From contig CAIMUX010000049.1 in assembly GCA_903844735.1 (NCBI GenBank), forward strand, positions 1 to 49,477: a stretch of 49,477 nt of DNA, given 5' to 3'. How positions within the stretch are numbered: position 1 is the first letter of the stretch; each line of letters starts with the position of its first letter. Under the pieces are notes generated by a model. The model was not told where the DNA came from. It searched no databases and saw only the letters and a program-made list of their open reading frames with translations. The position numbers were made by a program, and so were the translations under genes. Shown here in pieces: positions 10,053-20,585 of this stretch. The DNA comes from Candidatus Eiseniibacteriota bacterium (GTDB lineage Bacteria > Eisenbacteria > RBG-16-71-46 > CAIMUX01).

Positions 10053-10277
10053 AGCGGCGGCCCTCCTTAGCAACGTGCCTAACGGCTCCCGACCATTCCC
10101 TGGGCGCCGAAGGATCGCAGAAGGTTACCCGCCCGCCCCCGCCGGTGTAAACTCCCCCTCGGCTGCGCTGCCCGACGGGGCCCGCGCCGATCAATCTCCC
10201 TCCTCGCCCCGGACGGTCCGCGGCGACGGTCGGGAATCAGTGGTCCGCCCGGTGTGGGGCGGGGAAGGAGGGGCACG

Positions 10278-11396
10278 GTGGATCCGCGCATCACGAAGCT
10301 CGCAGATCTTCTCACCAACTATTCCTGTGCGATCAAGCCCGGGGAGAAACTCCTCGTGGAGTGCAACGGCTTTGACGCCGTCCCCCTGGTCCACGAGGTC
10401 GTGCATGCCGCGACGCTGGCGGGAGGCATCGTCTTCACCAACATCCGGCACGACCGGCTCACCCGGCGTTTTCTCCACGATGCCGATGAGGAGCAGATCA
10501 AGGCCCAGGCGAAGTACGACACGATCCGCATGAAGGACATGCAGTGCTATATCGGTGTCCGCGCCACCCCCAATGCCATGGAGATGGGGGATGTCCCGTC
10601 CGACAAGCTGCGCCTCTGGAACAAGTACTACAACGACCCGGTCCACATGAAGGTCCGCGTTCCAAAGACGCGTTGGGTGGTGATGCGTTGGCCGAACGAC
10701 TCGATGGCCCAGAACGCCCGTCTGCCGCTCCATCCGTTTGAGGACTTCTACTTCGATGTCTGCACACTCGATTACGCGAAGATGTCGCGGGCCATGGATC
10801 CTTTGAAGGCGACGATGGAGGCCGCCGACCAAGTCGTGATCAAGGCCCCCGGCACCGACCTGACCTTCTCCATCAAGGGAATGCCGGCCATCAAGTGCGA
10901 CGGCCACGTGAATATCCCCGACGGCGAACTCTACACCGCACCGGTGAAGGACAGCATCAACGGCACCCTGCGGTTCAACACCGCCAGCCTCTTCGAGGGG
11001 ACCATTTTCGAGAACATCGCGCTCGTCTTCAAGAACGGCAAGGTCGTCCAGGCCGACGCGGGACCGAACACCGAGAAGCTGAACAGCATCCTCGACCGCG
11101 ACAAGGGGGCCCGCTTCACCGGCGAGTTCGCCTTCGGGTTCAACCCGTACATCAAGACAGCACTCCTTGACACCCTCTTCGACGAGAAGATCGCCGGGTC
11201 GATCCATTTCGCCCTGGGCAATTCCTATGACGACTGCGACAACGGGAACAAGTCGTCGATCCACTGGGACATGGTGCAGATCCAGCGGGCCGACAGCGGC
11301 GGCGGGGAGATCCGCTTCGACGGGAAGGTCGTTCGTGCGGACGGGATCTTTGTTCCGAAGGAGCTCAAGGGGCTGAATCCGGACAAGCTGAAGTAG
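10278..11396 (+). CDS. M29-type (AmpS/PepS-like) metallo-aminopeptidase
   Basis: 372 residues from GTG 10278, preceded by GGAGGGG. An in-frame ATG at 10254 would add eight residues and lies upstream of the ribosome site. Family features are clear: NIPDGELYTAPVKDS, TGEFAFGFNP, SIHFALGNSY and SSIHWDMV supply the Glu, Glu, His, His and Asp residues that bind the two metal ions in thermophilic aminopeptidases. It should remove N-terminal residues from cytoplasmic peptides. No signal peptide. It stands alone between argS (divergent) and a strong terminator at 11473-11500. Confidence 0.9.
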   Translation: MDPRITKLADLLTNYSCAIKPGEKLLVECNGFDAVPLVHEVVHAATLAGGIVFTNIRHDRLTRRFLHDADEEQIKAQAKYDTIRMKDMQCYIGVRATPNAMEMGDVPSDKLRLWNKYYNDPVHMKVRVPKTRWVVMRWPNDSMAQNARLPLHPFEDFYFDVCTLDYAKMSRAMDPLKATMEAADQVVIKAPGTDLTFSIKGMPAIKCDGHVNIPDGELYTAPVKDSINGTLRFNTASLFEGTIFENIALVFKNGKVVQADAGPNTEKLNSILDRDKGARFTGEFAFGFNPYIKTALLDTLFDEKIAGSIHFALGNSYDDCDNGNKSSIHWDMVQIQRADSGGGEIRFDGKVVRADGIFVPKELKGLNPDKLK

Positions 11397-11500: not shown

Positions 11501-11819
11501 AATCATAACAATCGCTCTCGCCATCGCGGATTTGGATGTTGAACTGCTTCACACTTTTCGGTCACTCTGGGAGACACGGGGGGCGGGGTGCTTCCCGCAG
11601 TTGGATCCGCGGGGGAGGTGGCGTGCTTAACGGGCGGTGGCGGATTGGGCCGTGGTCCCTGGCGTACCCCGCTCCCGCGCCGTTTCCCGGCCTTCGGCAC
11701 CCACTGATCCCCGGTCCCGACCACCGATCGCAACCGGACGGCGTCCGTCTCCCGTACCGCCTGCGCGCATCGCGCGCCAACGGCGTTTTGAGGCGCGGTC
11801 GCTCGTGAGGATCCAAGCG
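11501..11819. other. Intergenic region upstream of the DUF6754 operon
   Basis: 319 bp with no supported gene. The plus-strand frame of the next gene stays open through most of it, but the encoded sequence is Pro/Arg-rich and has no signal peptide. I see no clear promoter consensus. Confidence 0.5.
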
Positions 11820-13109
11820 ATGCACCGGACTCGAGCCCATCCCGCTTCCCGCCTCGCTGCAGTTTTCTTGCTCCTTCCTCTCTTCTTGACCACGACGACG
11901 GGACACGCGCAGCTCCCTGCCGGCTCCGCGGAGAACGGCGCGGTTGAGAGGTCCGTGACCCCACCCCCACCCCCACCCCCACCCCCACCCCCACCGCCTC
12001 CACCGCTCCCCTTCACCGCCCCTATGGGGGTGACCGCGGCCGACACCCCGAGCGATGAGGGCGGGAGCATCACGGTGAAGTGGAATCCGGTGCCGGGCGC
12101 CGTCCGTTTCCGCATCGAGCGGGCGGAGTCGGGGAAGGAGTTCGAGGAGTCAGGCACCGCGATCCCCGCCTCCGGGAAGAAAGGGAAACCCCTGGCCCGG
12201 AGGTACAGGGAGAGTTACGTTGACGAGTCGTCCACCGACGGCACCCCGTTTACCTACCGCGTGGTGGCCCTCGGCCCCGGTGGTGAGGAGGGAGTCTCGG
12301 CAGCGAGCCAGCCGGCGACCAGCGGCCCGCAGTGGTTCAACCGCAATCTCACCCTTGTTCTCTTGGCCGTCATCGGTTTCATCCTTCTGACCGTTTACTT
12401 CATCCGACGGGCACGATCGGGCGAGCATCTTTTCATCCGGCGCATTGCCGGACTCGAGGCGGTCGACGAGGCCGTGGGTCGCGCCACCGAGATGGGCCGT
12501 CCGGTCCTCTTTCTTACCGGGATGGCCGACATCGACCAGATTCCCACCATCGCCGCGTTGAACGTCCTGGGAGAGATCTCGAAGAAGACGGCCAAGCTCG
12601 GCACGACCCTGCGCGTGCCGAACTGCAGGCCGGTGGTCTATACCGTGGCGCGCGAGGTGGTGAAGGGGGCCTATACCGAGGTCGGCCGGCCCGACGCCCA
12701 CGATCCGGAGAGCGTCTTCTTCGTCGTCGAGAACGTCCTCGCTTACGCCACCGCGATCTGCGGGATCATGACCCGCGAGAAACCGGCGGCCAATTTCCTG
12801 CTTGGCAACTATGGGGGCGAGTCGCTCGTCCTCGCCGAGACGGGCGCCATGACCGGGGCGATCCAGATTGCCGGGACCGACGCCACCACCCAGCTCCCGT
12901 TCTTCGTCGTCGCGTGCGACTACACGCTGATCGGCGAGGAGCTGTATGCCGCCTCCGCGTACCTCTCGCGCGAGCCGCTCGCGGTTGGCGCGCTGAAGGG
13001 GCAAGACTGGGGCAAGGTAGTCTTCCTGCTTTTCCTCGTGGTCGGCACCGTCCTCGCCCTCGTCACGGGCCTGGACGTGGGGCGCGTCCTCGAAACCGCG
13101 GCGCGCTGA
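11820..13109 (+). CDS. DUF6754 family membrane protein with fibronectin III domain
   Basis: 429 residues from ATG 11820, chosen because a signal peptide follows (hydrophobic core residues ~12-25, cleavage near GHAQ). Then a 15-residue polyproline tract (~48-62), an FN3-like domain (~66-160, GVTAADTPSDEGGS, WNPVPGAVRFRIER), a membrane helix (~167-188), a soluble domain of ~210 residues with GRPVLFLTGMADID and LGNYGGES, and a last membrane helix (~405-425). I recognise the DUF6754 signature; its function is not known to me. It heads four co-directional genes whose junctions are 25, -4 and -4 bases, so the products probably form one inner-membrane complex. Confidence 0.8.
   Translation: MHRTRAHPASRLAAVFLLLPLFLTTTTGHAQLPAGSAENGAVERSVTPPPPPPPPPPPPPPPLPFTAPMGVTAADTPSDEGGSITVKWNPVPGAVRFRIERAESGKEFEESGTAIPASGKKGKPLARRYRESYVDESSTDGTPFTYRVVALGPGGEEGVSAASQPATSGPQWFNRNLTLVLLAVIGFILLTVYFIRRARSGEHLFIRRIAGLEAVDEAVGRATEMGRPVLFLTGMADIDQIPTIAALNVLGEISKKTAKLGTTLRVPNCRPVVYTVAREVVKGAYTEVGRPDAHDPESVFFVVENVLAYATAICGIMTREKPAANFLLGNYGGESLVLAETGAMTGAIQIAGTDATTQLPFFVVACDYTLIGEELYAASAYLSREPLAVGALKGQDWGKVVFLLFLVVGTVLALVTGLDVGRVLETAAR
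11959..11998 (+). repeat. CCACCC hexanucleotide tract (polyproline; G-quadruplex-prone complement)
   Basis: About six tandem CCACCC hexamers encode part of a polyproline linker. The complement has at least five runs of five G separated by single T bases, a classic G-quadruplex pattern and a slippage hotspot. Changes by one unit keep the frame. Confidence 0.9.
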
Positions 13110-13134
13110 TCACCGGAAGAGGAGGTCGCAAGCG

Positions 13135-13812
13135 ATGCGTGTAAAGCTTCCCCTGGGGTTGATGATCTTCTTCGGGATCCTCGGCTTCACCGACAGCTTC
13201 GTTCCGCACCCATGGGCACAGAACTTTCACGGTGTCCTGCGGAACAAGGTTCTCATCGTCATCTCGGTCTTCGCCCTCGCCCTCGGGATCGGCAATCTGA
13301 TCAGCCACCATGTGACCCGCATCAAGAGGAAGGGGCCGAACTGGATCCACTCCTACACGACGTTGATCAGCTTAGGTATCGCGACTCTGATCGGCATCAT
13401 GGGCGGCGTCACCGGCAATGGCTGGCTCCCGACCCGGGTGGGCGGCTTCAAGTACGACATCCAGACGATCTACTTCAAGGTCTTGGTGCCGCTGCAGTCG
13501 ACCATGTTCGCCCTCCTGGCCTTCTTCATGGCCTCGGCCGCCTATCGGTCGTTTCGCGCCCGCAACCTTCTGGCCGGACTCCTCCTCGGCTCCGCTTTCG
13601 TGGTCATGCTGGGGCAGGTCCCGATCGGTGAGCTGTTGACCGGTTTCCTGCCGCCCGGCTTCCACGCGGCCGACATCTCGACCTGGATCATGCAGGTTCC
13701 CAACACCGCCAGTAAACGCGCGATCGAGCTCGGGCTCACCTTGGGGGTCCTCGGCACCATGCTCAAGATCCTGACCGGGATCGAGCGGAGCTGGCTCGGA
13801 GGTGGGCGATGA
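13135..13812 (+). CDS. Six-helix membrane protein of the DUF6754 operon
   Basis: 225 residues, ATG with GAGGAGG upstream, 25 bases after the first operon gene. Hydrophobic segments lie near 7-20, 38-57, 77-97, 118-140, 146-165 and 195-212, with the polar loop NWLPTRVGG-like stretch (GNGWLPTRVGGF) between the third and fourth. No catalytic motif is visible and I do not recognise the family. Tight coupling to the DUF6754 gene and to the next two genes suggests a subunit of one membrane assembly. The stop overlaps the next start by four bases (ATGA). Confidence 0.75.
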   Translation: MRVKLPLGLMIFFGILGFTDSFVPHPWAQNFHGVLRNKVLIVISVFALALGIGNLISHHVTRIKRKGPNWIHSYTTLISLGIATLIGIMGGVTGNGWLPTRVGGFKYDIQTIYFKVLVPLQSTMFALLAFFMASAAYRSFRARNLLAGLLLGSAFVVMLGQVPIGELLTGFLPPGFHAADISTWIMQVPNTASKRAIELGLTLGVLGTMLKILTGIERSWLGGGR

Positions 13813-14675
13813 ACTTCGAGAAGCTCCTCCACATTGACCGCAAGGTCATCTTCGTGCTGATGGGGGTGGCGATCGTCATCCCGCTGGTCTTTCCATTTCG
13901 TCTGCCGGTCGGGGAGCAGCCGCCGACCCGCGGGCTCTTTGACACCATCGACCGGATCGATCCGGCCAAGCAGGCTCTCATGGTCTCCACCGATTGGACG
14001 CCGCAGACCGAGGCCGAGAACCAGCCGATGACAGTGGCGCTCATTCGTCACGGCCTGGCGCGCAAACTGCGCGTCGTCGTGATCAGCTTCTACAACGAGT
14101 CGATCCCGATGGCGAATCAGGCGGTCATGCAGGTGGTCGAGGAGTACAACAGTCAGGCGAAGAACGAAGCGGAGAAAGTGGTCTACGGCCGGGATGTGGT
14201 TTTGCTGGGCTGGGTGCCGCCGCCCATTGTGCCGATCCTGGGAATGGGGCAGAGCATTACGGGTGTGTACAAGGTCGACTACTACGGTGCCGGCACCGAC
14301 ACGCTGCCGATCATGAAGGGGTTGGGCAGCTACGACGACATCGGGTTGGTCTGTGCCGTCTCCGGCGGCAGCTCGCCGCAATGGTTCCTCCAGTTTGCCC
14401 AGCCGCGCTACGGGGTGAAGATCGCGGCGGCGGTGACCGCGGTCAGCGCCCCCGACCTCTATGCCTACATTGAGTCCGGACAGCTCTCCGGGATGCTCGG
14501 CGGAATGAAGGGGGCTGCTGAGTACGAGAATCTGATCGAGGAGAAGTATCACGTGGGCGGGCGGCAGCGTGCGATGGAGGGGATGGGCCCCCAGTCGATC
14601 GGGCACCTCCTCATCATGGCCCTGGTCATTATGGGCAACGTCGGCTACTTCGTTGCCAGGAGGAAGGCGTCATGA
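13809..14675 (+). CDS. Membrane-anchored Rossmann-like protein of the DUF6754 operon
   Basis: 288 residues, ATG overlapping the previous stop, with GGAGGTG upstream. One membrane helix at each end (~17-33 and ~264-282) brackets a soluble alpha/beta region. The soluble part has repeated beta-strand/helix pairs (KQALMVSTDW, LRVVVISFYN, VVLLGWVPP, IGLVCAVSGGSS), which suggests a Rossmann-like layout, but no nucleotide motif is clear. The motif FPFRLPVGEQPP follows the first helix. Function unknown; role inferred only from operon position. Confidence 0.72.
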   Translation: MNFEKLLHIDRKVIFVLMGVAIVIPLVFPFRLPVGEQPPTRGLFDTIDRIDPAKQALMVSTDWTPQTEAENQPMTVALIRHGLARKLRVVVISFYNESIPMANQAVMQVVEEYNSQAKNEAEKVVYGRDVVLLGWVPPPIVPILGMGQSITGVYKVDYYGAGTDTLPIMKGLGSYDDIGLVCAVSGGSSPQWFLQFAQPRYGVKIAAAVTAVSAPDLYAYIESGQLSGMLGGMKGAAEYENLIEEKYHVGGRQRAMEGMGPQSIGHLLIMALVIMGNVGYFVARRKAS

Positions 14676-15436
14676 GGGGCAACGTGAGGTACCTCGCCTG
14701 GGCCGGCGTGGTCGTGGCCCTCGGCATTCTGTTCTACTCGACGCGTTCCACGATCTCGCACGACCCGTGGACCTGGGTCGGCGTCTTCCTGACGGTGGCG
14801 GTCTTTTCCTTCCTGTACCGAGAAAACCGTATCTACCGTTTTGCCGAGCACCTGGTCGTGGGCGTGGCCAACGGCTACAGCATCTCTTTCACGGTGCACC
14901 GGGTGATCGTGCCCTATGTTATCAAACCGCTCTCCGCGGGCTTCAAGGCTCTCGCCGCCGATGGGCCATCGCTGAAGCTCTTAGACCCGAACTCTTCTGC
15001 CAACTTCATCATCTTGGTGCCGCTGGCTATCGGGCTTCTCTACTTCGCTCGCTTCATTCCCAAGTACGCCTGGCTGGTGCGGATCCCCATGGCGATCTTC
15101 ATGGGGTACTACACCGGGCAGACGGTGCCGGCCGCGTTCACCGGGGTCGTTTTCCCCCAGTTGAAGGCGACTTTGGTCACACAGGCCAGCTTCGGCGGTG
15201 ATCCCTGGCTCGGGGTATGGAAGGTTCTGGTGCTGGTGGGTGTGCTCACGACGCTGACCTATTTCTTCTTTTCGCGAGAGCACAAGGGCGTGCTGAAGTG
15301 GAGTGCCAAGACCGGGATCATCTATGTCATGGTCGGGTTCGGAGCCTCGTTCGGCTTCACGGTCATGGCGCGGATTTCACTCGCCATCGGTCGCTTCTAC
15401 TTCCTTTTCCGCGACTGGCTCGGGATTCTGCACTGA
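14672..15436 (+). CDS. Multi-pass membrane protein, last gene of the DUF6754 operon
   Basis: 254 residues, ATG overlapping the previous stop (ATGA), with AGGAGGA upstream. Hydrophobic segments lie near 7-22, 32-48, 108-126, 134-150, 183-202 and 213-232. Short basic or aromatic loops include FLYRENRIYRFAEHL and FARFIPKYAWLVRIP. I know no named family. Together the four genes encode roughly sixteen membrane segments plus one FN3 domain and two soluble domains, a plausible envelope complex. Confidence 0.72.
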   Translation: MRGNVRYLAWAGVVVALGILFYSTRSTISHDPWTWVGVFLTVAVFSFLYRENRIYRFAEHLVVGVANGYSISFTVHRVIVPYVIKPLSAGFKALAADGPSLKLLDPNSSANFIILVPLAIGLLYFARFIPKYAWLVRIPMAIFMGYYTGQTVPAAFTGVVFPQLKATLVTQASFGGDPWLGVWKVLVLVGVLTTLTYFFFSREHKGVLKWSAKTGIIYVMVGFGASFGFTVMARISLAIGRFYFLFRDWLGILH

Positions 15437-15506: not shown

Positions 15507-17627
15507 CTATTGGATGTATCCCAGGGACCTGAATCGTTCCAGCATCTCCTGATCGATGCTGCTGGCCGCGCGTTCGATCGCCTCCGTCTCCTGCCGGCCG
15601 TAGGAGGCGATCCAACGCACCGGCGGCAGCGCCGCGGCTGCGTCAGGCGTGAGAAGGTCGGCGCGTGGTCCGGCGTCCATGTCGCGTGCGGAAGGTAGCC
15701 CGAGCATCCACAGGATGGTCGGCGCGATCTCGTCGGGTGCGATCGGCGTTGTGAGAGTGCCCGCGCGCACGCCGCTGCCCGCCAGCGCGAGGAAGCCCTC
15801 CGGCCGCGACGGCGCGTCCTTCCAGGGGAGCCCGGGCAGCGTGACCCAGAGAAGCAAGCGAGACGGCCCGGCCGTGTGGGTGGCCCCGGCAGCCCCGACG
15901 GCCACGGTAGGACCGGTAGCCCCGGCGGCCAGGGCACCCAGCGGCACCTCCAGCGCGTCGAAATAGATCCGCAGCGCTTCGCGCCGGCGCCGCTCGCGTT
16001 CGGCAGGCACGGCGATGCTGCGCGCCAGCACCCGCCGGATCACATCCGGTCCCGGCAGATGCAGCATCCAGAGGTCGGGCTGTTCGCGGTCCAGCAGCCA
16101 CGCCGCCGTTTGCGCGTGGAAACAGTCGGAGCGCAGGGCATCGCCGGGAATGCCGAGTTCCGTCAACGCGGTCAGCGCCTCGGCCGAAGGGACCGAACCG
16201 TAGAGTGCGGCCAGACTCTCGGGCAAGGACGCCCCGGCAAAAATACCTAGTTCCACGAGCAGCGTCCCCGGCCAGGTCTCACTCTCCAAGAGAAGGGGCT
16301 TGCCGTCGGGTCGCACCGGACTCATCGCCCCTTCGATGCCCGGTCCCGGCGTCTGCACGCTCGCGGCCACGCGTGCCGTGACCCGGGCCCGCTCCTCCGG
16401 ATCGTCGGCTCGATCCCCGGTGGCCGGGGCCCCGGCCAGCTTCACCCAAGCATGGTCGCTGACCAGCGCGCCGCGCACCTTCTCCGCCGGCCAACTCACC
16501 CACCAGTTCACCACCACGCAGCGCCACCCCGCATCGGAGACCATGTTCCAGAGCCCCTTCGTCTCGCGCATGTAGCTCCGCACCGGAACATCACGCGTCA
16601 TGCGCAGGAAGGGGAGCACGCTATGCGCCAGCTCAAAGAGGCCGAGTTGCTCGGGGCCAATGGCGACAGGGATCGGCAGTCCGCGCACAACGCGCGCTTG
16701 GTAGTCGGTAATGCCGTGGGCGGAGAGGTCGCGGCCCGTCGCCACAACCGTCCAGTCCATGGGTGGCAGAGGCTCCACCGGCGCCGACACGCTGCCGCGA
16801 GTTCCGCGGAGAAGACGATCGGCCCAGCGCAGCCTTCCCTCGGAGCGCAGCCACGCGACATCCTCCGGGGTCAGTCCGTCGATAGCGAGAAGCGCCACTG
16901 GGCGGCCCGGCGTCCCTCCGTTGGGGGCCGTACTGCCGGCGGCGGGCATCCCCCCTTGGTGGGCTGTGCCGCCCGTGGGTGGTGCTTGCACCATGTCCCG
17001 CGTCAGCCCCGAGCGCTCCGGCCGCCGCCCGGCCGTCACCCGCGCCACCACGAGGAAGACCGCGAACGCCACCGCGCTGTAGAGCAGGATGCGGAAAGCA
17101 TGCCGCAGGTCATCCGGCCGCCGCCGCTCGGGTTTCTTCACGAAGACGATGAGAAGGTAGAACGCCTGTCCGAGCAGCCGGGCCAGGAGTGCTGCGACCG
17201 CGGCGATGCCGAGCAGTACCGGCAGGTTCGACCAACGCAGCGGTGTCGCGAGGGCGAGTCCGCCGATCCCCTGCCACCGCGCCCAGGAGAAGGCATAGAG
17301 GCCGCCGATCAGGAAGAACACGAGCCAAGCTGCGAACCCGGCGGTCTTGGTGTCCGAGAGGCTCCGGCGGGTGACCAGAAAGAAGAGAGTCTTGCCCGCC
17401 GCCCCGGCCATACCCAGAACGAGGCAAAGGACGCCATAGACGAGCTGCAAACCTACCACCAGGCGCATCACGCCCCCGAACGAACGGAGGATCCCCGGGT
17501 TGAGCGCCAGTGAAGCGGCCGCGGCGAGCAGACCCAAGAGCCCACCGCCGATCAGCCCGGTCCCGATGCCGATCTGGAGGTTGTGCGCCAGTTCGCGCCG
17601 CAGTCCGTGGGGTCGTTCTTTGTCCAT
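15507..17627 (-). CDS. Membrane-anchored alkaline-phosphatase-fold (nucleotide pyrophosphatase-like) protein, probably degenerate
   Basis: 706 residues. The first ~205 hold about five membrane segments; a Gly/Pro/Ala linker made of the 18-bp repeat follows (~216-240), then a phosphodiesterase-like domain beginning LLAIDGLTPEDV. Asp in AIDGL and Thr in DWTVVATGRD fit the first metal ligand and the nucleophile of the alkaline phosphatase superfamily, and HGITDY follows as usual. Later ligands look missing: LHLPGPDVIRR has the Asp but Arg where His is expected, and the SDHG position reads TLPG (in LLLWVTLPG). A second Ala/Gly-rich insert lies at 15880-15950. I infer weak or no hydrolase activity. 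It ends facing the DUF6754 operon; no clear ribosome site at 17627. Confidence 0.75.
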   Translation of the reverse strand: MDKERPHGLRRELAHNLQIGIGTGLIGGGLLGLLAAAASLALNPGILRSFGGVMRLVVGLQLVYGVLCLVLGMAGAAGKTLFFLVTRRSLSDTKTAGFAAWLVFFLIGGLYAFSWARWQGIGGLALATPLRWSNLPVLLGIAAVAALLARLLGQAFYLLIVFVKKPERRRPDDLRHAFRILLYSAVAFAVFLVVARVTAGRRPERSGLTRDMVQAPPTGGTAHQGGMPAAGSTAPNGGTPGRPVALLAIDGLTPEDVAWLRSEGRLRWADRLLRGTRGSVSAPVEPLPPMDWTVVATGRDLSAHGITDYQARVVRGLPIPVAIGPEQLGLFELAHSVLPFLRMTRDVPVRSYMRETKGLWNMVSDAGWRCVVVNWWVSWPAEKVRGALVSDHAWVKLAGAPATGDRADDPEERARVTARVAASVQTPGPGIEGAMSPVRPDGKPLLLESETWPGTLLVELGIFAGASLPESLAALYGSVPSAEALTALTELGIPGDALRSDCFHAQTAAWLLDREQPDLWMLHLPGPDVIRRVLARSIAVPAERERRRREALRIYFDALEVPLGALAAGATGPTVAVGAAGATHTAGPSRLLLWVTLPGLPWKDAPSRPEGFLALAGSGVRAGTLTTPIAPDEIAPTILWMLGLPSARDMDAGPRADLLTPDAAAALPPVRWIASYGRQETEAIERAASSIDQEMLERFRSLGYIQ
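16912..16983 (+). repeat. 18-bp unit repeat array, 4 units (inside phosphatase-fold gene)
   Basis: Four contiguous 18-bp units at 16912-16929, 16930-16947, 16948-16965 and 16966-16983 match the units at 865-900 and 1817-1870. The gene is on the other strand and reads them as a Gly/Pro-rich linker (PPTGGTAHQGGMPA...) between its membrane and soluble domains, with no frame change. Confidence 0.85.
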
Positions 17628-17900
17628 GGCCGGCCGAGTCTACCCCCGGCGCGACGTGGGCGAAACCTTTCACCCCCTCCGGGAGTGCACCGCGGAACGT
17701 CTCTTCTGATCTTTTTGGAAGGCCCTGGACGCGATGAGCATGGGCCAACCCGCCCCACCCAACGGCTTCGCCAGCGCGAATTTCAAGCCGACCCGCTACC
17801 CACGACGGCGCCCGCTTGCAGTCCGCCGTCGGACGGCTATGATCTCGACACGCGGGTCGTGGCGACCCGCCCCCATGGACGGGGGTTTAAGGAGGTGCTC

Positions 17901-20585
17901 ATGCGGTGCCGGGGGTTGGATCGGATCAGGATCTCAGCTCACTTCGTGATCTTTCTTTCGGCCATAGCCACGACCGGGATGGCGCCCGCGAGGGCAAGCG
18001 GCGGGTCGCTCGTCGCGGGACTCTCCGACTCGGCCGTTCCCGCCGCGAACGAGTCTTCGCTCTGCGACCTCCCGGGATTCAATTCGACGGCGGTGCGTGA
18101 CGACGCCACCGCTCTCTACGCCAACCCCGCCGGGATCAACCGCTCGGTGCCGCTGGGCTACTACTTTGCCTGGGATTCCGGGATGCACGGCCGCGGCGAC
18201 CTCGGCACCTTCGGCATCACCGCCGGGGCCGCGGGGTTTGGCTACCAGCAGGTCCGCCCTTCGCGGGCCGGTCGCTATAGCCGCATGACGTTCGCAGTCG
18301 GAGGCGGATCGCGCGGGCCGGTCTCCCTGGGTCTGCGCGGCTCTCGCGAGCACCAGGCAACACGCGTCGGCCCCGACGCCGCGGCGTGGCGCTGGGATGC
18401 CGGACTGCTGTGGCGCCCCACGCGGGCCTTCAGCTTAGGAGCTCTGGCGCGTGACCTCACGGAAGAGCAGATGTTCACCGAGCCGTACCGCCGCAGCTAC
18501 GCGCTCGGCATCGGTGTCCGGCCGTTTCCCTGGGACAACCGGTCGCGCGTCACGCTCTTTGCCGACCTCACTGGAGGCGAGCAGGAGACATGGAGGGTCT
18601 GGAAGGACCACGCCCGCCTCGCCGTCGGCGGCCTGGTGGAGCCCCTCCCCGGGTTGGAACTTTCCGGCTCGATGGAAGGGAGTCTTAGCACCTTTTCCGA
18701 TGATCGCATCGTTCGTCTCGCGGTCGGACTGCACACCCGGCGCACCTCGTCGTGGGCCGGCACGCGCTATGATCGCCTCCGCGGCACCGCCGAGCGCCCC
18801 GACGACCGCGACGAGCGGATGGGGCACATTCTGGCCGTCCAAGGTACGGCGGCGCTGCAGCGGACGATGAAGAGGGAATCGGTCCTGGCGCGGATCCGTC
18901 TGGCCGGGACCTACGCTGACGGAGAGCAGAGTGGCGTGCCCATCCCGATCCCGATGATCGGCTCGCCATCGTACCGGAGCATCCGCCCCACGCTGCGCGA
19001 CCTCGCGCGTGCCGAGCGGGATCCCGATGTGCGGGGGGTACTCATCGAGTTGGGCCCGGTAAGTGCGGGTGCTCTCACCTCCGAGGTGCGCGACGCCATT
19101 CATCGCGTGCGCGCCGCGGGCAAACCGGTGGTCGCCGTCGCGGACGACATCGGCGGCTTCGGCACCTATCACCTGGCCGCCGCGTGCGACCGCATCGTCA
19201 TTGACCCGGTCGGCAGCGTAGAGCGGCTCGGCTTTCGCGGGGATGTTCTGTACCTCGGCGAGATGCTCGATTCCGCCGGCGTGCAGGTTGAAAAGGTGGC
19301 GCACGGCAAGTACAAGTCCGCCGGGGAGACGCTCATCCTTTCCCGCGCCTCAGAAGGGATGAAAGAGGCACTCAACGCCATCATCGACGACCAGCGCGAG
19401 GTCCTGCTCGCCGACATCAGCACCGATCGCAAGCTAACGAGGGAGAAGATCGAAGAGCTGGCCGACGGCAGGATGCTCGACGGCAACGAGGCGGTGGCGG
19501 CGGGCCTCGTCGATACCCTCGGTGATCGACGCGACGCGGAGAAGCTTCTCGCCCGGCTCGCTCGGAGGAAGGGCGAACCGCGGCTCGTCTCGATGTCGCG
19601 GCGCGTCGACCGCGACTATGCCTGGGCTGACGGGAAGAAGGTCGCGATTCTCTGGCTCGATGGCGAGATCGTCACCGGCAGGAGCGGCGGCGGTTTCTTC
19701 TCCGCGAACACCATCGGCTCGGAGACCGTGGCCAGGCAGTTGCTGGACATCGAGAAGCGCCGCGACGTGGCCGCGGTGGTGCTGCGCGTCGATTCACCCG
19801 GTGGGAGCGGACTGGCCTCCGACCAGATCTGGCGGGCCGTGGAGAAGGTGAAGAAGAAGGGGAAGAAGATCGTCGTCTCCATGTCGCGGGTGGCCGGCTC
19901 GGGCGGCTACTACATCGCTTGCGGCGCCGACGAGATCTTCGCCGACCCGATGACGATCACCGGCTCGATCGGCGTTCTCGGCCTGAAGCCGAATCTGGCC
20001 GGTTTCTACCGCCGTCACCGGCTCGGGGTAGAGACGTTCGAGCGCGGCCGCATGATGGGAATGTACTCTTCGGCCGTGCCGCTCACCGACGAGCAGCGGC
20101 AGCACATGCTCGACTACATCGACCGTTTCTATGCCCACTTCCTCGATCGCGTCACCGCGGGACGGCCGCTGACCAAGGAGCAAGTCGATGCGGTGGGGCA
20201 GGGGCGGATCTGGACGGGTCGGCAGGCGCTCTCCCACAAGCTGATTGACCGCATCGGCGGCCTCAGGGAGGCGGTCGATCGGGCGCGCGAGCTGGCCGGG
20301 CTGCCGCCGGACGCCAAGGTGGTAGAGATCGAGCGGCCAAACGGGTCGATTCTGGGGATGTTGCGTGAGGGGATGACGATGACGCTGGGTGGGGCCGGGA
20401 GCCCGGCGGGTCTCCGCGCGCCCCTAGCGTTGCTGGATGACACGGCGGCCGGTCTGGCCGGCGAGGTTGACCCGTTCGCGGCCTGGGCATGGAAGTGGAC
20501 CTGGCTGCAACGGATTGCCCCCGGTTCGGTGGCTGGACCTCTCCTCCTGAACCCGATGATGGAGGCGTTGATCGAGGCACAATAG
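17901..20585 (+). CDS. sppA: Signal peptide peptidase SppA fused to an N-terminal barrel-like domain
   Basis: 894 residues from ATG 17901, with GGAGGTG four bases upstream; the frame extends left without coding character. Signal peptide at 1-33 (APARASGG). Residues ~55-300 begin TALYANPAGI, a hallmark of PorV/FadL-like outer-membrane barrel proteins, and are rich in alternating aromatic strands. Residues ~345-860 are a 67K-type SppA with two S49 domains: the general-base Lys472 lies in GKYKSAGE and the nucleophile Ser667 in AGSGGYYIA. It should cleave remnant signal peptides or other membrane peptides. The barrel-SppA fusion is unusual compared with E. coli SppA, which has an N-terminal anchor only. 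Confidence 0.88.
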   Translation: MRCRGLDRIRISAHFVIFLSAIATTGMAPARASGGSLVAGLSDSAVPAANESSLCDLPGFNSTAVRDDATALYANPAGINRSVPLGYYFAWDSGMHGRGDLGTFGITAGAAGFGYQQVRPSRAGRYSRMTFAVGGGSRGPVSLGLRGSREHQATRVGPDAAAWRWDAGLLWRPTRAFSLGALARDLTEEQMFTEPYRRSYALGIGVRPFPWDNRSRVTLFADLTGGEQETWRVWKDHARLAVGGLVEPLPGLELSGSMEGSLSTFSDDRIVRLAVGLHTRRTSSWAGTRYDRLRGTAERPDDRDERMGHILAVQGTAALQRTMKRESVLARIRLAGTYADGEQSGVPIPIPMIGSPSYRSIRPTLRDLARAERDPDVRGVLIELGPVSAGALTSEVRDAIHRVRAAGKPVVAVADDIGGFGTYHLAAACDRIVIDPVGSVERLGFRGDVLYLGEMLDSAGVQVEKVAHGKYKSAGETLILSRASEGMKEALNAIIDDQREVLLADISTDRKLTREKIEELADGRMLDGNEAVAAGLVDTLGDRRDAEKLLARLARRKGEPRLVSMSRRVDRDYAWADGKKVAILWLDGEIVTGRSGGGFFSANTIGSETVARQLLDIEKRRDVAAVVLRVDSPGGSGLASDQIWRAVEKVKKKGKKIVVSMSRVAGSGGYYIACGADEIFADPMTITGSIGVLGLKPNLAGFYRRHRLGVETFERGRMMGMYSSAVPLTDEQRQHMLDYIDRFYAHFLDRVTAGRPLTKEQVDAVGQGRIWTGRQALSHKLIDRIGGLREAVDRARELAGLPPDAKVVEIERPNGSILGMLREGMTMTLGGAGSPAGLRAPLALLDDTAAGLAGEVDPFAAWAWKWTWLQRIAPGSVAGPLLLNPMMEALIEAQ

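Follow-up and report, generated by a model that had tools for sequence, protein, structure and literature searches.

The window analysed here covers positions 1 to 49,477 of contig CAIMUX010000049.1 from a Candidatus Eiseniibacteriota bacterium, and its subject is a cassette of four forward-strand genes, here named A, B, C and D, that keeps its order across phyla, is inherited jointly, and recurs with particular partners and gene neighbours. A–D very probably constitute one membrane system, a conclusion that is well supported, and the best explanation of its activity is gated or driven transport by an A–D complex acting with two cytosolic proteins, a MutL-type ATPase and a protein termed c18, for which the probability is put at roughly 0.4. 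A sequence-only reading of the window had proposed an undescribed envelope system; this was a fair description, and too modest a one, as the cassette exists in multiple copies, in many phyla, and with its cytosolic partners MutL and c18 encoded on another contig. The sole known name that fits is that of a domain of unknown function (DUF6754, PF20539), neither form of which was mentioned in the literature searched, where, judged from the search results, there was likewise nothing on the locus. The system is new as a described kind, and its function could prove familiar. The four genes and the parts of A are laid out as follows.

11820-13109, forward strand: gene A, 429 residues; predicted signal peptide, proline linker, periplasmic FN3 domain, transmembrane (TM) helix, cytosolic Rossmann-like DUF6754 domain and TM helix; AlphaFold2 model with a predicted local distance difference test score (pLDDT) of 87.2
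12003-12335, forward strand: FN3 domain of A, residues ~62-172
12327-13067, forward strand: DUF6754 match of A, residues 170-416, spanning both TM helices, the second of which lies within residues 386-416
12342-12416, forward strand: first TM helix of A, residues 175-199
13135-13812, forward strand: gene B, 225 residues; polytopic, with ~6 hydrophobic stretches and conserved Arg138 and Arg141
13809-14675, forward strand: gene C, 288 residues; TM helix, putative extracytoplasmic Rossmann-like domain (residues ~38-252), and TM helix with invariant His266 and Asn277
14672-15436, forward strand: gene D, 254 residues; polytopic; its invariant Glu59 and Arg234 lie within or adjoin hydrophobic stretches

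The four overlapping or tightly spaced genes described by the sequence-only reading at 11820-15436 are indeed found there as open reading frames (ORFs), with a gap of 25 base pairs (bp) between A and B, and overlaps of 4 bp at both B/C and C/D. An in-frame GTG lies upstream of A at 11637; the start at 11820 yields a signal peptide. A is a clear member of PF20539 (E 1.4e-106; 355.8 bits against a curated cut-off of 27), a family matched by all 71 A proteins of the alignment used here (A2). The FN3 domain, also named in that reading, is backed by hmmsearch matches to solved FN3 domains in the PDB, and by a structural alignment of its AlphaFold model with 1qg3_B (Z 13.2, root-mean-square deviation (rmsd) 1.5 Å, 87 residues aligned). 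A suggested link to SPFH proteins gained no support from sequence, Band_7/SPFH being absent from the 20 families matched at E <=0.1 by the 71 A proteins, in a search that did not treat the DUF6754 fold alone. Pfam describes one domain of the system, with no function; the four-gene unit, its paralogous arrays, and its association with MutL and c18 go beyond it.

For B, C and D, no family scored above any cut-off in Pfam or NCBIfam scans, and PDB profile searches with these three and c18 gave nothing significant. No convincing homology of B, C or D to a known transporter emerged, an outcome that the sequence-only reading had named as refuting it. The Pfam scan likewise showed no ABC ATPase domain among A–D. 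Weak Pfam matches that were inconsistent between members were set aside: for 29 B proteins, TMD0_ABC in nine (best E 0.0014), Acyl_transf_3 in five (best 0.00014) and DUF4149 in one (1.5e-06); for 75 C proteins, MARCHF6_C in one (0.00053); and for the 71 A proteins, DUF3592 in one (8.6e-06) and IF-2B in two (0.0037). Pfam matches of 27 D proteins were weak only, varying by member. A promoter/terminator scan gave no promoter-like site, and its terminator-like sites (five, against 2.8 expected) were not used as evidence.

Counts of A–D, MutL and c18 are hidden Markov model (HMM) matches to six-frame ORFs. PF20539 is present in five copies in the source genome and in 45 of 47 genomes of its phylum, with 1-7 copies each, including all 26 that are >=90% complete and <=5% contaminated; 14 well-known genomes scanned as controls had none. 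In every positive genome examined whole, inside or outside the phylum, the copy number lay between one and seven. A scan of 84,980 species genomes confirmed at least 576 relatives, and the best 80 of these at least 576 come, by their record titles and allowing for possible binning errors, from over a dozen phyla, most of them uncultured: Eisenbacteria, Zixibacteria, Stahlbacteria/WOR-3, Latescibacterota, Fermentibacteria, Cloacimonadota, Neomarinimicrobiota, Coatesbacteria, Edwardsbacteria, Riflebacteria, Planctomycetota, Armatimonadota, Poribacteria, and others.

The sequence-only reading had named a neighbourhood survey as its own test, and such a survey finds the four genes linked in other genomes. 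A is followed by B, C and D in order at 134 of 152 A hits (132 scored automatically and two, the sorting artefacts L043 and L054, by eye), the same place having been fetched twice for some (L016/L017, L033/L055, L040/L122). Of the 18 incomplete hits, 14 lie within 3.5 kilobases (kb) of contig ends and the other four comprise exceptions or split genes: L132 and the second A of both L060 and L087 are without the full set despite having room for it, and L067 has an extra upstream piece of A. Among 40 stretches from the same phylum, picked for holding PF20539 (L015-L054), the same-strand order A-B-C-D is found in 38, the remaining two (L038, L051) being truncated where the contig ends. The HMM-matched parts are separated by median gaps of 19, 5 and 12.5 bp. 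Chance ORFs are ruled out by a gene order kept across phyla.

The cassette also multiplies as a whole, with tandem arrays of two to three complete cassettes (e.g. L058, L082, L084, L118) and at least two A genes in 23 of 80 cross-phylum loci. In 128 cassettes, all distinct, the distance matrices of the subunits correlate with r 0.61-0.82, and for a pair of subunits the nearest neighbour coincides in 60-67% of cases; since host kinship adds to these correlations, they demonstrate joint inheritance, not contact. Subtypes in the joint tree are not confined to single phyla, and the window cassette is sister to a triple array from a WOR-3 genome, with a Shimodaira-Hasegawa-like approximate likelihood ratio test (SH-aLRT) value of 100. 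An origin as a mobile element or phage gene was rejected, as tblastn with the DUF6754 part gave no matches in 72,556 plasmid and 50,697 phage records, and a role in anti-phage defence was likewise set aside, with no PADLOC match for A–D, c18 or MutL at E <=0.01. In one cassette of the single-contig genome G012, A is reduced to its last 141 residues (L034:9514-9936), B, C and D are found, and the L036 ortholog is full length.

Mean pairwise identity in A is 61% for the DUF6754 core (70 sequences) compared with 27% for FN3 (66 sequences), which is missing in five of the 71 A proteins. C had been described as a bitopic Rossmann-like protein, of which the fold stands and the bitopic topology does not: its AlphaFold model (pLDDT 96.5) begins with a helix, continues as an alpha/beta domain of six strands and ends in a long helix, and two membrane helices are predicted, at residues 11-27 and 254-287, flanking the Rossmann-like domain. 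The top match in a fold search with C was 1kjn_A (Z 9.8, rmsd 3.4, 140 residues aligned), among generic Rossmann-like proteins; tied rows below it included RCK domains and periplasmic sugar-binding proteins. The DUF6754 region of A has the same order of helices and strands as the domain of C in the AlphaFold models, which suggests that the two share a fold. Lys/Arg residues in C number ~4 outside each TM end compared with 1.2-1.3 on the domain side, and in A the pattern is reversed, more weakly; this charge bias would place the domain of C outside and, with less force, the DUF6754 domain of A in the cytosol. Conserved residues of A (E334, S335, D367, T369, E373, E374) and of C (D62, T210, Q225, E240) fall after or between predicted strands in these models, a placement of acidic and polar residues that would suit ligand pockets.

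One cassette per genome often adjoins two cytosolic genes, encoding a MutL-type (PF13941) ATPase and c18, within a core locus of the order c55, c29, MutL, c18, A, B, C, D. The partner MutL is ~600 residues in length, with a highly conserved N-terminal part and an extra C-terminal part, and scores 424.9 and 431.4 bits against PF13941 (cut-off 27); its conserved consensus motifs are presumably the ASKHA phosphate motifs. Of 22 c18 members, 17 match Biotin_lipoyl and 14 RnfC_N at E <=1, and five have a KOW-like end, indicating a barrel-sandwich domain with KOW; against RnfC_N, one member reaches 25.7 bits (cut-off 25.6) and two others fall below. Within the phylum, MutL is found in 44 of 47 genomes and c18 in 43, in 28 of which a same-strand A lies within ~1 kb of c18 (adjacency counted by eye from tables). 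One full c18 and a MutL were found in each of 15 genomes from other groups, also where these are unlinked from the cassette, as in G049, a WOR-3 genome; the MutL of G048 is in two pieces. The 80 cross-phylum loci, many too short to show partner genes, include MutL in 38, c18 in 40, c29 in 29 and c55 in 19. MutL and c18 recur with A–D, which they probably serve.

In the source genome, c55-c29-MutL-c18 and glycine-cleavage genes together occupy the end of another contig (L136), and as the run stops at the contig end, a core cassette may be hidden by the break. MutL and c18-like parts are fused in one ORF of 848-1028 residues in six loci (L135, L137-L141), away from cassettes; the example in L135 is placed as follows.

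L135:3926-7009, reverse strand: MutL/c18-like fusion ORF

ORFs of 964 and 980 residues in G053 and G056 resemble this fusion. On a Coatesbacteria chromosome (L074:13644-20778), MutL is split into two parts of opposite orientation, and c18 and an entire cassette stand inverted between these parts; the inversion may be genuine or an error of assembly.

In the preferred model, A, B, C and D would be four subunits of one inner-membrane complex, encoded by a cassette that duplicates and is passed on as a unit. A would cross the membrane with FN3 outside and the Rossmann-like DUF6754 domain inside, C would hold a similar domain outside, and B and D would make up the membrane core. Several cassettes per cell, varying most in the FN3 ectodomain, would share one cytosolic pair of MutL, an ASKHA ATPase, and c18, whose ATP-driven changes may act on the cytosolic domain of A; passage through B/D of a small molecule or ion would be gated or driven, with the outer domain of C as the ligand-binding side. 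ECF transporters combine a shared energising module with many specificity units, and here, likewise, copy numbers suggest one shared cytosolic ATPase pair and several membrane units per genome, although the ATPase is of the ASKHA rather than the ABC type, and it is the whole membrane unit that is duplicated. A more specific version, in which an ASKHA-family (actin/Hsp70-like) MutL and a barrel-sandwich/KOW adaptor power interchangeable four-subunit units as an energised machine, is put forward only tentatively.

Several points weigh against this model. Complex formation by A–D, transport, and the driving role of MutL-c18 are inferred. The fold of C is a common one, and homology between the A and C domains is not established, because hhalign, although co-linear over 198 columns, gives only E 0.03 in one pairwise comparison; hhalign among A–D and their partners found no sequence homology. 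The 15 genomes from other groups were all picked for having A, with no A-less comparison set. The neighbours of non-core cassettes are diverse. Moreover, cassette number falls as the number of Plug domains rises (Spearman rho -0.50 in the 47 genomes; counts entered by hand from tables, fragments included), which disfavours a model of one cassette per TonB receptor.

The rival explanations draw in part on the wider gene neighbourhood, for which clusters rest on a separate gene caller that missed or mis-called genes at high-GC (guanine-cytosine) loci, and for which gene families were confirmed on single cluster members. The alternative that survives best, though doubtful, is a sensory or signalling complex, in which the outer domain of C and the FN3 domain of A would sense a ligand or surface contact and the cytosolic domain of A would relay this to MutL-c18 and regulators, with no transport. 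Domains on opposite membrane faces suit a relay, FN3 is the variable part, and genes for a DUF4388 protein and a Roadblock/LC7-like protein (one member at 21.3 bits, below the cut-off of 23) stand in line after the cassette, the same clusters occurring in seven loci (L064, L069, L075, L077, L078, L093, L134). These regulators, however, adjoin the cassette in a minority of loci, and a relay would not need two polytopic subunits whose conserved charged residues sit within or alongside membrane stretches.

A TonB-coupled importer, in which the cassette would be the inner-membrane step for one substrate class arriving from a neighbouring receptor, is unlikely. TonB genes do follow the cassette in several lineages: in Fermentibacteria (L089, L090, L097, L098, L103) the core cassette precedes a TonB-dependent receptor, ExbB, two ExbD-like genes and TonB, and in WOR-3/Stahlbacteria (L064, L069, L075, L078, L093) the cassette and its DUF4388 and roadblock-like genes are followed by ExbB-ExbD-ExbD-TonB, an arrangement of one ExbB and two ExbD that we take to recall gliding motors. 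Receptors follow the cassette in seven further loci (L057, L059, L062, L063, L065, L066, L106); another group has, downstream of the core cassette, genes for a lipoate ligase (in most cases), a receptor, a large secreted protein and a PorV-like protein. A cluster resembling a peptide permease, so named by eye, stands close to the cassette in 10 loci, and some Eisenbacteria have such a cluster. A–D nevertheless match none of the TonB, ExbB, ExbD and receptor families, cassette copy numbers do not track receptors, as the negative correlation with Plug domains indicates, and no locus of the own-phylum stretches L015-L054 occurs in the receptor, ExbB or TonB neighbour clusters.

It is considerably less probable that the system assists glycine cleavage or a B12-dependent mutase as a metabolic accessory, the membrane proteins being side players. 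MutL (GlmL) is an accessory of glutamate mutase, and the partner ATPase matches its family at >400 bits; core loci often have GcvT, GcvH and GcvP upstream and a lipoate ligase downstream, and methylmalonyl-CoA mutase is present in 44 of the 47 phylum genomes, so that a link to that enzyme is conceivable. The partner differs from GlmL in its extra C-terminal part and its setting with c18 and the cassette, and a role for glutamate mutase itself was rejected because glutamate mutase E (PF06368) is over cut-off in 0 of the 47 genomes, against 44 with MutL. Glycine-cleavage genes, moreover, occur close to just 16 of the 80 cross-phylum loci (some of them short), and many cassettes, that of the window included, have neither kind of gene adjoining.

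Least likely of all is an RNF/NQR-type ion-translocating complex without classical redox centres, with c18 in the role of RnfC, for while RNF has a loosely similar layout of two polytopic subunits, outer- and inner-domain subunits and a barrel-sandwich peripheral protein, to which the RnfC_N-like domain of c18 would correspond, the six-helix subunits of RNF/NQR carry conserved cysteines for Fe-S that are absent from the B and D consensus, and B, C and D match no RNF/NQR family.

Genes flanking the cassette in the window lie outside the system as described, and include the following.

10254-11396, forward strand: M29 aminopeptidase, directly upstream of the cassette (PF02073, E 3.8e-52)
15507-17627, reverse strand: 706-residue membrane protein, of the alkaline-phosphatase kind by eye, with no significant Pfam match
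17583-20582: SppA-like peptidase of 1000 residues, whose long N-terminal part, not covered by the S49 matches, is outer-membrane-like by eye; the start may lie further in

A gene 63% identical to the M29 aminopeptidase precedes a cassette of another subtype in L028.

A widespread system in which three of the four proteins have no family points to a major gap in what is known of the envelope in these lineages. If the tentative reading of an ASKHA-powered machine is correct, similar Rossmann-like arms would lie on both faces of the membrane, and the cassette would represent an ancient envelope system of many uncultured phyla that relies on neither ABC ATPases nor a redox chain. The system would also give a non-mutase role to a branch of MutL likely to be annotated automatically as a glutamate mutase accessory, and the conserved MutL/c18 set makes the system testable without culturing its hosts.

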